Program-made: the position numbers and the translations under genes
Shown: positions 1-12,779 of the stretch, piece by piece
Numbering within the stretch: the first letter of the stretch is position 1
How the letters are laid out: every line of letters starts with the position of its first letter
The notes under the pieces: generated by a model
Told to the model about the DNA's origin: nothing
The model's database searches: none
The model's input: the letters and a program-made list of their open reading frames with translations, nothing else
Source of the DNA: Adineta ricciae
Lineage: Eukaryota; Rotifera; Eurotatoria; Adinetida; Adinetidae
NCBI GenBank assembly: GCA_905250025.1
Contig: CAJNOJ010000006.1
Location: 434,001-498,000, forward strand
Direction of reading: 5' to 3'
Length of the DNA: 64,000 nt

Positions 1-179
1 GAGGTCTAAAATGAAAACCCCAAAAATATTATTAATTCGATTGGAAAACAAGAAAATCTGCATCCTACCAATGGGCATTTGCTCGGATCGCAGGGTTCAC
101 ATGGTTTGGTCTGTTGAGCAAGAATGGCTGAATAGACAAACGTTAAAGTAAGCAATGTAAAGAGACATCGAGTAGCCAT
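1..179 (-). CDS. secreted Cys-rich protein, 5' end only (cut by left edge)
   Basis: Partial gene. On the minus strand an ATG at 179 opens a signal peptide (MATRCLFTLLTLTFVYSAIL) followed by a cysteine-rich start, CEPCDPSKCPL. The coding exon is 69-179; a GTAGGA donor at 68 and a TTTTAG acceptor at 7-6 give a 63-nt intron, so exon 2 begins at position 5 and runs off the window. The C-x2-C-x4-C spacing after the signal peptide resembles the start of insulin-like-growth-factor-binding (IGFBP-type) domains in small secreted invertebrate proteins. Only about 13 residues of the mature chain are visible, so the family is an inference; other Cys-rich secreted domains could start this way. The signal peptide and splice sites are seen directly. 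Confidence 0.55.
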
Positions 180-2725
180 CGTCTTCTAGTGTTGTAAAAA
201 TAAAATGGTAGATATGTTGTTTGCTCTTTCTTCGTTCTTTCTCACTATCGTTGCTTGAGATATTATTTATGTCCGTTTGCGGTTATACAGGCGAGCAGCG
301 CCGACGACGACGACGACGATATATTGACAAGTCCCTTACTAACATAGGGGAAGAGAGAGGGAGAGAAGAGAAAGCTAGTACAAGCAACTAGCGTACAGTT
401 AGATATACAGAGAAGAGAAAAAAATACCAAGCGACATATGGTTGTATTACTACACATCTTCCAGATCTATTCCAATCTAGCATATCTATGTTTACTTATC
501 AATCTGACCAAGGAAACTAGCGTCCTTCTTTTCTACGTTTTCTTTCCTATAGAAAAATTTGCGAGATATACAATTAATTCTTTTATCTATAGACATTTGA
601 TGGTACTGTCTTATTCCTATTGCATAAACTCTACTCCTACTCCTTTTTCTCTCTCTCTCTTTCTCGCTGTTGATATTCTCATGTACACATACACATATAT
701 ATTTGCTTGCATTCAGATTATATAATAGACATATATCAGAGCAGACAGGAAGGAGATTGTGCGATGCATATGCACCAAAGAAAATGGATAGCAACGTCGA
801 TCTTGATGTTGTCCTTCAATCATTTACAGAAAACGAAGGCTAATATGATGTTGTTTAACCGGAATTGTATTCATTAAAATAGCAAAGGTCACATTCTTCT
901 ACTCGTATCCAAGAACTTCGAAAGTATTCAATGCGATTTTTAACGGTGGATTATTTTGATTCTTTCGCCTTAGCAGAACGTTCATTAAATGTTTAATTAT
1001 ATAAAACCTGCGTTGGATAATTGCTTTGAGCGGCATCACCTACGCATGAACTGGAGATGAATCCACAGTTTTCATATTTATCAAAGTCATCAGCTTCATC
1101 GACTTTTGTTCATAGCAACTTTGTTAACCATCGTAATTAGACAGAAAGTATAAAAGTGGATACATCTACTAATTCAACGCTTGCAAGTATTTACTCACTT
1201 TCCTTCTCCATAGTTTTACTATAAATTATGCAAATAGAATATTTATATATTTATAATTTTGCAGTGAAACTTCCGTTTTGAATAGCTAATCCAGGAAAAA
1301 GTCATGAAACTCCTGCTATAGACTATATCATAACTATGAGCCATTTTATAATCATGAATGTTAGAGATACGTGAACAAGGTATATATATATAAACTATAA
1401 TTATTCAGCTATGAATTTAAAAGGTCAGTGTTTTGAATTAGCATATACTAATTCACCGACAAACAGAAGTACTCTGCTTATTCTTCCAGGTAAAGAGTAA
1501 TTCGTTCTAAACTTAACGGAATTAGTTAAACAGTGTGTTTTACATGAAATTTTCTTGAATGGCAAGATAACTTAGTCGTGATCGAGCAGGATAGACTTAC
1601 TCGTTTTTACATGTCGCTGTCTGCTGTCAAGGACTTGAACAGAGAATAGTCACGAGAACTCTGACGCCATAAACAATATTTATGCTCATAATCGTTGCCT
1701 AAGCGGTTTTCGTTTATATATAATCCTTATTTAACGTTAATTGAGGATTTATTTTATTTTTTATCTGATGTATAAAAAAGACGTACATGAAGGGAAAGCA
1801 CATTAGTTTCCTTTAGATCTAACCTCTGGTTGAGCTTCGTTCTTAAAGCACACATCGATGTAGGCTGACTTTCGCATTCCTTTGCCAATAATCATCACAA
1901 AACCTGATCTTTCTAGGTCTTAATTAGCATAGTGAATTTTTATTCGAGTTGTGCGAGATACATAGTTAATCAAGAGTTTTTATCGACCGCCTGGGAGAGG
2001 GAAATATTGTGCCACATATTTGATGAGAATATTTCACAAGTTTCGATTGAATACTCGCCTAAGGACTACTCACTTGTATCTATAGAGTTATTTAACCTTT
2101 GAGTTCATCATTTCATCAAACAAAGTTACAAGTTTATGACTATCATTTCATTCGTAATTGAGTTATGAATTACCTTTGTTACCGGAGTTTCGATCGGTCA
2201 GTTTTGCTTTGAATGCTCTGTGGAAATGTTCTTCGAATAAACTGATTAGAGTAGATTATATATTGATATAGAAAAAAACGCCTAATTGACAATTAAAATC
2301 GAGATATCGAATAGAAACAAAAACGCTATCTCTTCTCCTACGTTCATTAAATATTTCATATTAGGAAAAATTACTCTAGTGGGAAATCATCCAACATGTA
2401 TGAGTGTTAGAAAAAAACGAGTCATCCTTCAATTCTTGATAAGTTCATTGAATAAAAATATGGAGACGAGTCTTGCGAGGAAAAAAACGTGAAACTCATT
2501 TTCATCGTTTACCAATATGTCAAAATCTCACTTTATCGCATCAATGATTACATAGTTTTGAATTAATACTACATATCTATATATATACGGTAAGATGACA
2601 ACGACACAGCATTCTATTAAACAGAATAATAGATCCGCATATATTAGCAATTAGTTTTCACAAAGTTTTGCTCTTTGTAATGTCTTGTGGAATAGAAGAT
2701 ATATCATTTCTTTTCTTTTATTAAG
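180..2725. other. intergenic, no gene seen
   Basis: About 2.5 kb with no ORF that has a protein-like composition on either strand. A short GAC trinucleotide run lies at 301-319, and CT- and A-rich tracts occur throughout. It should contain the promoters of the secreted gene to the left (minus) and the peptide gene to the right (plus), but I can place no site with confidence. Confidence 0.6.
301..319. repeat. GAC trinucleotide run
   Basis: About six GAC units in the first intergenic region; not inside a supported exon. Confidence 0.7.
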
Positions 2726-3046
2726 ATGTCAACTACGTATATGGTTTCGTTCGGCCTTCTAATTTCATTGCTCGTCATTCTCTCGATTTCATCAATCACT
2801 CGTCCAGCTTGTGCTGTTTCCCATTTTAATCGCGAGAACCCAAATTATGATAGCAGCGAAGATAAGGATATTCGATTGATGATTTATCCTAAATACATGA
2901 ATTTACCACGTCTTCAACGCTCATCTATCTATGGTCCTCGCACCATTCGTAATTCCTGGTTTCGTGCATCGACTTATCAACATATGAAGCCCAGTGGTTC
3001 AATCGATGAAAAACCTGCTGGAGATAATCTTTTACGATGGGGATGA
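2726..3046 (+). CDS. putative secreted peptide / neuropeptide precursor ending in RWG
   Basis: A single open exon of 106 residues. Residues 1-30 form a clear signal peptide with a hydrophobic core and an A-x-A-like end (RPACAVS). The rest is small, hydrophilic and Tyr/Pro/Arg-rich with no folded-domain signature. The chain ends LLRWG immediately before the stop, and a C-terminal Gly is the standard donor for peptide alpha-amidation, giving a possible -LLRW-amide. Monobasic Arg sites and a GPR site could be cleavage points; there is no strong dibasic site. Lower-case-like AT-rich flanks and a nearby AATAAA-like stretch after 3090 fit a short mRNA. The next gene downstream has the same architecture. 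I do not recognise the family; precursor status is inference from signal peptide, size and the Gly end. Confidence 0.5.
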   Translation: MSTTYMVSFGLLISLLVILSISSITRPACAVSHFNRENPNYDSSEDKDIRLMIYPKYMNLPRLQRSSIYGPRTIRNSWFRASTYQHMKPSGSIDEKPAGDNLLRWG

Positions 3047-3322
3047 CTTTGATTAACGTTTAAAGGAAATATTCAATTTTTCTCTTGCTTTTTAATAAAC
3101 ATAAGTGACATCCAGATTGAGTCCATGTCGTGTAAGAAGGAACACGAAATTTAATAAAGAGTATATATATTTAGTCGTATATCGAAATAATGAACATATG
3201 TCATCTCAATCAATTTTGAGTTGCTCCATCACATCAACCCCCACACACTAAGCTATACTCTATTTATATGTGTATATATAATTAGAAATTAGCGTCACTA
3301 TGCATGGAATAGTATTTAGTAA

Positions 3323-3681
3323 TTGGGGGTAACAATGAATATCTATTGTACAGCAATCTTATTTCTTGCCACTTTCATGCAATTGAGTATGAGAAGAGTA
3401 ACATCTTCGCCATTGGAACGCCATGCAATCGATCATAAACCAAAGAACGAAGAAACTGAGAATATCAAACAGAATCTTGTTCCATGGATATTACGACGCA
3501 ATCCACCTCTATGCGATTACCGGTTACAATTTCGGCCACTCCCACTAACAACAGCTCTTTGTGGATACGGTTAGTATTGCTTCTATTCTTTCAAAGCGAT
3601 CGTCGCAGCATCCTGATTTGTTTAGGACACTACGGTAAGAGTGAACAAGTAAACCATGTACATCCATTCAAATACGGTTAA
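3323..3681 (+). CDS. putative amidated-peptide precursor, two exons
   Basis: Exon 1 is 3323-3569 and exon 2 is 3626-3681, joined by a 56-nt GTTAGT...TTTAG intron in the correct phase, giving 100 residues. A second Met at 3335 may be the real start. A hydrophobic signal segment lies at residues 6-20. A dibasic RR near residue 59 precedes NPPLCDYRLQFRPLPL, a second Cys 14 residues after the first, then HYGK (amidation plus cleavage signal) and a last segment ending HPFKYG at the stop. The product could therefore be a Cys-looped Tyr-amide peptide and a second Tyr-amide peptide. If the intron is retained the chain stops earlier, at CGYG, again a Tyr-Gly end. Family not recognised. Signal peptide, RR, GK and terminal Gly are seen; processing is inferred. 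Confidence 0.5.
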
Positions 3682-4314
3682 GATGGGTTGGTCAATCTTT
3701 TTCCTACAAGTCGTACGAAAATAAAAATGTAGCCAAAGACTTTATTTAAATAAACAAAGACGATTCTGTCTAGTATAAATTCAATGTTGACATCAACGTT
3801 CTGAGCAGATTCTCTCGAAATCTTTGAATATTTATTCATATCTCGATTATTCGAATGCTTTCAATTTCAATATGGGTCCACTGAAAAACAAAACGAATTA
3901 AAATCTATTAAACATCAACAAAAGTTAAATAAAGAAAAAGCTGAAAGCAAAACAGAACAAAAGAAAATGTTTATCTAGGATTAAGTATATCTAAAGGAAT
4001 CTTTTCATCTCGAGAGATTTTGCCGGATTTTCTATGTATAACAATGGAGATACATAGCAAAGAAAAAGGAAATCGAACAAGAAAGAACATAAATAGCCAC
4101 TAAATCAGGAGAAACGAAAGTATACAAATGATTTCAGGGACGTTTGTTTTTCTTCGTAAGCATATACATACACACATACATGTATAGAAGCACTGACAAA
4201 CAAAAAAAAACAAGAATGTGAGTACAACATTTGCTGAAATGAATCAGAAAAAAAGAAACAAGAAAATATGTTTTTTAGCGATCAGATCATTTCGAGATGT
4301 TGTTTTGTAGTTTT
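3682..4314. other. intergenic, 3' flanks
   Basis: A-rich spacer between the plus-strand peptide gene and the 3' end of the minus-strand CHD4 gene. AATAAA occurs near 3718 and 3749 for the upstream gene. No coding signal seen. Confidence 0.5.
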
Positions 4315-10732
<6,418 letters not shown>

Positions 10733-12779
10733 AGTGATAATCAATCTTATCCGCTTCTGTTTATTAGTTGACTATCATCTAAAGTAATTTTTAGAGAAAT
10801 GAAAATAATCAACAAAAACAAAAGTACAACACCACCCACACACGAAAAATTTGTCCTCCCATCTTGCTTTTTTTTCCGTTCTTTCCTCTATACTGCCGTC
10901 TGTTTATTAATGATGATGAGTTAACTGACATTAATTGAACTCCTTCTATCGTGGCAGAAATACTACTAGCCAAAGATGTCATCAGTAAAGCGCGACATGT
11001 CGACGATTTTTCTCGATGCATGTAGCGACAGTTGGACATACAATTTAATACGTCCAATGAATGTTTGACATGACAATCGCAATAGATAGCGCTCGAATAC
11101 TAGTTAAGATATTGATTTTAATTTGGAGAAAAGTCTAGAGAAAGTATTTTTTGTTATCTTACGTCATATCTCATTTGAATCATTCGAACGTGTTTTCATT
11201 CGACCGTTGTTTAATTATTAGAGATATTCAAAAAGAAATATGTTAACGCCTAAATGCATGCACTTCACTACTCTATCGACCCTTAGTTATATTTGTATCA
11301 TGGTAATGATAAAAAATCTAATAGAAACAGAAGAGAGAAGAAAGAAAGAAAGATTAACAATACCTATTAGAAATTTGTTACTGCTACATGCCCGAAAGCT
11401 GTTTATCACCTAGAACAGCAAACTATGCGAAAGAATGTGCATTTGAAATTTTTGGCAAGGAATCAGACCGAATTCTCTCAATGACTTATCGTACGAACAA
11501 TCAGAATTGCGTTCTACGATGGTCAAACTTGAAAGCAATTGAATTTCAACATTTGATTGCAATCATGCAAGTGAAAATGATTTTTTTCTCGAAAGTTACT
11601 TTACTTTGCGCTTTCATTAATTATTCATGAACTCTGAAATCGGATTCTCTTTTGAATTACAAGAGCTTTGTAAAGAAACTTTTGTTTCTTTGTTTGCGGA
11701 TCAAACTACTGAAGCTTACCATAGATAATTTCATTTTTTCATTTGCCTTTTGATCTCATCCCTTTCAAATAATCTCTCATGAGAAAGGTGTTTCAGTTTG
11801 CTTTGATAAAACCTTTGAAATCAAAATTCTGTACGTAGCACTTGTGTCGTCGTATGTCATCGCTAGAGTAGTGGTTCAAACAACTATTAACAAAAGAATC
11901 ATTTGATAAAGTTCGGATATCTTACGGCATATGTGAGAAGCAAACGAAACTATCGTTAGCAAGGACAGGAGATAAACTGCACTTGATCAGAGTATAATAC
12001 CATTCTCATTCGACTTATCTATCCTTCAATATATTTGAATTGTTTTCTAGAAGGTCTGCTCTGAGTACCATATTGACAGTCGCAGATGCAATGATAACGT
12101 GATCCTTCAGTATACTGTTTCGAACATTCCACTATCGTTGTCATGTTCTTTTTTTTTATTTCCGTCAGAGACAACCCAACAGAACGGAGTCATTTAGCCT
12201 GACCGAAACTAAATACATATTCGCGTTCTTTGACAGTTACCAAGAACGACATAATTTAAATAGTTTTTCTTTCTATTAGTCATCTGAAACTGACTGACAG
12301 AAGTAGAAGATAAATAATTCCTTCAGTGGCATGCCACATTAGTTTACTTCTATAGATTATATGCACTATTAATCATCATTAATGCAGATGCTCATCATCG
12401 GAGTTACTACTCTGAGGTTCTTCGATATGAGTATGATCCAGTACTCTCTGAACAGGGAAATTGTTGGCTTCCTCAACAAATAATTTGAAACGCACTGCTA
12501 ATGTACTTGTTGCTCTCATAGATCACTGCCAATACGCATCAATGTCAAAAATGTTTGCTTCTGCAAACTATTTCCGTTTCAGATATCAAGTCAATTGACA
12601 TTTTTCATTTGAGTCTTGTGTCATCTTTGGTCTATGGGTGCATGAGTTATCAAGCTGACCTTAATCGAGACTTTTATTAATGTGCAGTGATAGAAACATC
12701 ACAATATGTTCATTCATTCGTCCTTCCTAGCAAGATGAGGAATATCTATTAACAAAAATTTTTAGGCTGAAAACATCTA
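10733..12779. other. intergenic, CHD4 upstream / GPCR downstream
   Basis: About 2 kb without a convincing coding exon. The region next to 10733 must hold the CHD4 promoter on the minus strand. A GA-rich run lies near 11330-11353. Short ORFs here have no domain-like content. Confidence 0.5.

Follow-up and report, generated by a model that had tools for sequence, protein, structure and literature searches.

Two tandem precursor-like genes

The window analysed here is a 64,000-nt stretch of the 130-Mb Adineta ricciae assembly (C6:434001-498000). It holds two tandem genes with the look of peptide precursors, called here gene 1 and gene 2. The ATG of gene 2 lies at 3335, and the start coordinate given in a preliminary description of this DNA, 3323, is 12 nt 5' of it. 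Coordinates refer to the window unless C43, the contig that carries the second copy of both genes, is named.

2726..3046, + strand: gene 1, precursor-like, 106 aa, ending GDNLLRWG-stop; in tandem with gene 2 and conserved on C43 in the same order and orientation
3199..3213, + strand (C43:226708-226722, - strand): 15-mer TGTCATCTCAATCAA, a candidate cis-element, exact in both copies, 136 nt before the gene 2 ATG in the window and 105 nt before it in the C43 copy
3335-3569 and 3626-3681, + strand: gene 2 coding sequence, from translation
3335..3569, + strand: gene 2 exon 1, with hydrophobic N-terminus, spacer, RR and the first 23 predicted mature residues up to the split Gly codon, from translation and the C43 copy
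3494..3499, + strand: dibasic cleavage site RR before NPPLC, from the alignment; KR in the C43 copy
3500..3675, + strand: predicted mature peptide NPPLCDYRLQFRPLPLTTALCGYGHYGKSEQVNHVHPFKY-amide (residues 56-95, 40 aa; Gly96 as amide donor), interrupted by the intron; both copies keep the dibasic site and the terminal Gly, ring and amide predicted
3570..3625, + strand: intron, 56 nt, GT-AG, phase 1, starting GTTAGT and ending TTTAG, with an in-frame TAG in the donor; the C43 copy has a 57-nt intron of equal position and phase
3626..3681, + strand: gene 2 exon 2, ending HPFKYG-stop, an amidation-competent C-terminus; the C43 copy ends INPFKYG-stop
3720..3725, + strand: AATAAA, a possible poly(A) signal, with a second at 3749-3754

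Translation reproduced the gene structure that the preliminary description had claimed, a 56-nt intron at 3570-3625 with HPFKYG and CGYG as the two possible ends. The spliced product has 96 aa and the C-terminus VHPFKYG; the intron-retained product has 79 aa and ends ALCGYG, at a TAG (3572-3574) within the donor. RR is found twice in the gene 2 product (residues 20-21 and 54-55) and HYGK once, and the window has a single occurrence of the nonamer TACGGTTAG, where 0.20 would be expected by chance. The N-terminus is hydrophobic, with a best 12-residue hydropathy of 2.13 in the window and 2.63 in the C43 copy, and the same is true of all four precursors (genes 1 and 2 in both copies), as judged by hydropathy alone and without a control.

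Gene 1 looks like a second peptide precursor, with an RW-amide end. Its C43 copy (C43:227241-226933, - strand) ends GDNLMRWGR-stop, and the 40 C-terminal codons give dN 0.266 and dS 1.16. A strong acceptor-like site abuts its ATG in both copies (2712-2726 in the window; scores 8.6 and 10.4) and would fit trans-splicing or an intron in the 5' UTR. Only weaker acceptor-like sites are present upstream of gene 2, the best scoring 3.7 and 4.4.

A duplicate block conserves the mature part of gene 2

Protein searches of the whole genome placed a second copy of gene 2 at C43:226617-226255 (- strand; E 5.8e-12), by which gene 2 is more than a chance open reading frame, and a second copy of gene 1 on the same contig (E 9.9e-14), with gene order and orientation unchanged. 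Both blocks are adjoined by a CHD/Mi-2-like gene, which in the window lies downstream on the opposite strand and matches the PHD, chromo and CHDII SANT-like families of Pfam. Because three tested pieces of this gene match between the window and C43 (78, 77 and 91% identity) and gene 1 keeps its place, we regard the C43 block as a true duplicate. No third copy of gene 2 was found in the genome, where the C43 mature peptide as query matched the two known places alone (E up to 10). In bdelloids, genes seem as a rule to be present in several divergent copies (PMC1925144), and duplicate genes in one bdelloid genome provide a built-in check on readings of sequence; the statements on conservation made here refer to two copies in one genome.

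Conservation is concentrated in the part that would form the mature peptide. Alignment of the spliced products (RNPPLCDYRLQFRPLPLTTALCGYGHYGKSEQVNHVHPFKYG and RNPALCDYRLQLRPLPLTNALCAYGQTKDNSHHINPFKYG) showed that the copies share the dibasic site, both cysteines, the core NPxLCDYRLQxRPLPLTxALCxYG and the spliced end PFKYG-stop. Counted from the final basic R through the terminal Gly, the copies agree at 27 of 40 aligned residues, and 12 of these 27 codons carry silent changes. Little of the N-terminal half is conserved (10 of 54 aligned residues identical), and nucleotide identity is 0.70 in the mature part versus 0.36 before it. By the NG86 method, dN and dS are 0.129 and 1.624 for the 25 codons of the exon-1 mature part; the part before the mature peptide is saturated (1.283 and 4.8).

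Exon 2 is weakly constrained apart from its end. Here 6 of 15 aligned residues are identical (NG86 dN 0.433, dS 0.791); the final 9 residues of the protein agree at 6 (0.149 and 0.602). The LWL85 method returned an estimate for five of seven stretches, among them the whole mature part (0.215 and 1.273), exon 2 (0.318 and 0.526) and the last nine codons (0.152 and 0.256). Support for constraint acting on this exon by itself is thus modest. Between the introns (56 and 57 nt), 27 of 56 aligned positions agree, or 0.48, as compared with a mean of 0.47 and a maximum of 0.66 in 100 shuffles. The spliced C-terminus PFKYG has thus been maintained during a time in which the intron lost all resemblance beyond that of shuffled sequence.

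Predicted processing and mature peptide

Gene 2 probably encodes a single-peptide neurohormone precursor of a bdelloid rotifer, in which the 56-nt intron is constitutively spliced and from which one 40-residue, ring-shaped Tyr-amide peptide would be made. After constitutive removal of the intron, the signal peptide would be cleaved and the precursor secreted; a convertase would cut behind the dibasic site that both copies share (RR in the window, KR in the duplicate) to yield the Gly-extended 41-residue peptide NPPLCDYRLQFRPLPLTTALCGYGHYGKSEQVNHVHPFKYG; a bond between Cys5 and Cys21 would close a ring of 17 residues; and PHM/PAL would use the terminal Gly to leave 40 residues with a Tyr-amide end, as the conserved PFKYG-stop and a PHM-like sequence in the genome suggest. 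The product would presumably have a signalling role.

Several traits agree with this reading. A basic site precedes NP(P/A)LC, conservation is higher in the predicted peptide than elsewhere in the precursor, and a PHM-like sequence in the genome accompanies the terminal Gly. The reading as a peptide precursor, already put forward in the preliminary description, thus gains from the C43 copy, in which the dibasic site and the amidation-competent PFKYG end are both kept. Taken together, the hydrophobic N-terminus, the conserved dibasic site and Gly, the better-conserved mature part and the enzyme sequences lead us to infer an amidated peptide with a 41-residue Gly-extended precursor form.

As to the enzymes, a PHM-like exon on contig C98 matches PAM structures at E 3e-16. 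It is one of 16 PF03712 matches in the genome, the identity of two of which (C18 and C98) was examined; the C18 match was rejected as PHM, being closest to dopamine beta-hydroxylase. Sequences of the P_proprotein family (the P-domain, convertase-type) are present in the genome; this family also matches 1 of 14 control genomes and is not specific to PC1/PC2. The genome contains 7B2-type sequences too, for which none of the 14 control genomes had a match.

The reading frame could instead be that of a small secreted protein, antimicrobial or structural, or of a pseudogene. That no Pfam family matched gene 1 or either form of gene 2 (spliced or retained), and that the one match among PDB sequences was weak and attributable to chance (E 0.89), would suit such a product, as would the poorly conserved N-terminal half. 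We consider it unlikely, given that purifying selection on the mature part and the conserved dibasic site and terminal Gly are traits of a precursor.

Somewhat more doubtful is a precursor that yields more than one peptide, for example by a cut at HYGK, which in the window copy could be taken as a Gly-Lys site for amidation and cleavage and would release a Tyr-amide peptide plus SEQVNHVHPFKY-amide. The corresponding stretch on C43 is YGQTKDN, in which HYGK is replaced by QTK and Gly-Lys is missing, and a single Lys is a weak convertase site. The internal RR and HYGK had both been offered as signs of a precursor; RR holds, being kept as dibasic KR on C43, but HYGK does not. We thus retain a single-peptide precursor as the preferred reading.

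Intron retention as a proposed switch

Retention of the intron had been proposed to switch gene 2 between two amidated ends. In the window, both CGYG-stop and HPFKYG can be read as amidation substrates, as claimed. The C43 copy with its intron retained ends CAYGS-stop; as the terminal Gly is absent, this form is not an amidation substrate, and of the two ends only the spliced one is shared as such by both copies. With CAYGS-stop and QTK on C43, both extra ends belong to the window copy alone, to the extent that two copies can show.

We assessed how unusual the intron is by a survey with a home-made gene finder run on 252 kb. With a filter of 5 bits for exons and at most 120 nt for introns, 201 introns were obtained (313 before the exon filter), some of which must be false, because 109 of the 201 have a length divisible by three. 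The window intron is outside these sets, in which its Gly-ending product would have shown up. At 56 nt it is close to the median of short predicted introns (54 nt). Read-through of a retained intron gives a Gly-ending product in 6 of 201 cases (9 of 313 unfiltered), and in 4 of 129 and 2 of 56 under stricter filters. The exact form in the window, phase 1 with G/GT (exon/intron) followed by a stop, is rarer than these looser counts, being seen in 0 of 201 and, unfiltered, in 2 of 313, a point that counts against a mere coincidence. Its components are more frequent: among the 201 introns, 41 are phase 1 after G, two have the donor GTTAG, and three have a stop at donor positions 3-5.

The Gly-stop on read-through follows from a phase-1 intron after an exon-final G, as G/GT always encodes Gly, combined with a GTTAG donor that supplies the stop. 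Such an arrangement is uncommon yet arises without function, to judge from the predicted introns, and a stop in a donor, however eye-catching, may result by chance from the phase of the intron and the sequence of the donor. Nor do the splice sites give any sign of a weak, regulated intron: relative to the 201, the donor and acceptor of the window intron are at percentiles 0.70 and 0.87, and those of the C43 intron at 0.32 and 0.48.

The gene finder by itself placed introns exactly at 3570-3625 and at C43:226305-226361. It did not return gene 2 as such but embedded it in dubious models, one with 30 introns at window 3125-6456 and one with 34 at C43 225958-229887. At 3635, within exon 2, a donor-like TACG/GTAAGAG scores 9.2, above the 7.2 of the real intron donor; the dubious window model uses it for a further intron at 3635-3682, and the matching codons are missing in the C43 copy.

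A regulated switch in the window copy would mean that retained mRNA encodes a short ring peptide of 23 residues, NPPLCDYRLQFRPLPLTTALCGY-amide, and spliced mRNA the longer PFKY-amide peptide. The retained frame does end Tyr-Gly-stop through a donor form seldom found among predicted introns, both copies keep C-x-Y-G immediately ahead of the junction, and the ring core, the best-conserved part, lies wholly in exon 1; the shared C-x-Y-G and exon-1 core are why we leave a small probability for a copy-specific switch. Against this stand the CAYGS-stop of the retained C43 form, splice sites that are not weak, and intron conservation no better than chance. A switch between two amidated ends is accordingly unsupported: it is the spliced end that is conserved instead, and intron length and splice sites are ordinary. 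We hold regulated retention in the window copy to be very improbable. That the duplicates divide the work, the window copy alone making a second, shorter ring-shaped Tyr-amide peptide by retention and the other the long one only, we would barely credit.

Comparison with known peptide families

By published descriptions, as far as these were available, genes 1 and 2 appear to match no named peptide family, and for gene 2 NKY, EP/CCHamide and elevenin each fail in at least one feature. Contigs of other genomes gave 47 pattern matches, with no relative among them. One locus matched in viral contigs and was taken as chance; it consists of a short stretch around TALCGYGH, the frame of which soon meets a stop. 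Vertebrate natriuretic peptides have a 17-residue ring, and the equal ring size was likewise set aside as chance.

The mature peptide of the arthropod CHH/ITP family has six cysteines, as against two in the mature part of gene 2. Among the systems compared, CHH/ITP is nonetheless the nearest analogue of a splice switch that acts on amidation: in the available account, alternative splicing changes the C-terminus, the short form being amidated and the long form never (PMC7560641). That switch uses alternative exons and leaves the long form without an amide, whereas intron retention was proposed here, and the absence of a Pfam match gives no sequence relation between the two.

Likeness to the NKY peptides of spiralians lies in a length of 38 to 43 residues and a C-terminal Tyr, gene 2 having PFKY-Gly in both copies (PMC6425005, PMC8557429, PMC4200219). 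In the descriptions available, NKY has an N-terminal Lys and a central FW[RQ]P[LM]G[YG] or G[YF]WIWMPAQG (same sources). The gene 2 peptide differs in that it would start with Asn after RR or KR rather than with Lys, has QFRPLPL or QLRPLPL in place of the central motif, and carries two cysteines.

EP/CCHamide, which is found in rotifers, shares with gene 2 two cysteines and a predicted amidated C-terminus (PMC6617912). Its peptide directly follows the signal peptide in nearly all precursors, with exceptions named in the accessible text; in the window copy of gene 2, 55 residues including a spacer and the dibasic site precede NPPLC. The nemertean EP/CCHamide has two splice variants, which differ at the N-terminus (PMC6617912). 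Elevenin, as described, has one Cys pair like gene 2, with the conserved cysteines at positions 5 and 14 (PMC4200219) versus 5 and 21 in gene 2.

Among the papers listed on rotifer and bdelloid neuropeptides, NKY and neuropeptide splicing, and in the text covered, there was no description of gene 2 or of such a switch, and FKYamide had no match. According to a 2021 survey, work on three Rotaria species turned up very few neuropeptide precursors, and an in-depth gnathiferan survey is the next frontier (PMC8557429). Few neuropeptide precursors have been reported for bdelloid rotifers, and the locus described here adds two tandem precursor-like genes, both duplicated and with clear predicted peptides.

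Surroundings of the genes and genome-wide observations

The intergenic DNA between genes 1 and 2 has largely diverged between the copies outside the 15-mer TGTCATCTCAATCAA, which is the longest common block of the two stretches (longest in 200 single-base shuffles, 13). Five exact copies occur in the genome, against none of a control. The 15-mer was rejected as an element of a gene battery, as the other three copies, inspected by eye, do not precede any obvious ORF for a small secreted product. In window positions 1-12000, no Rfam family matched at gathering scores. In the extract of the C43 block (L007), an ORF at 5543-5875 (- strand), upstream of gene 1, reads like the C-terminal part of a protein kinase; tblastn found no counterpart of it in the window or the preceding 20 kb.

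Matches resembling ligand-gated glutamate receptors were seen on C286, C267, C536, C202, C124, C256 and other contigs. Two of 67 such matches were compared and had AMPA-type receptors among the best 60 matches listed, which is uninformative for kinship. Many of them are within open frames of 700-1000 aa, as though they lacked introns and had multiplied locally.

A 23-nt spliced leader is common to bdelloids of two families, and B. plicatilis shows none (PMC1925144). With a 23-nt bdelloid leader sequence as query, we found no exact occurrence in the genome and 46 places with at most three mismatches (reversed control, 0), of which 41 have a single mismatch, at the first base. On this evidence a bdelloid source of the DNA is very likely. 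These 23-mers are clustered (C6:235175-251415, C8:239425-343228 and others), many of them arranged as divergent pairs whose starts are separated by about 153 nt.
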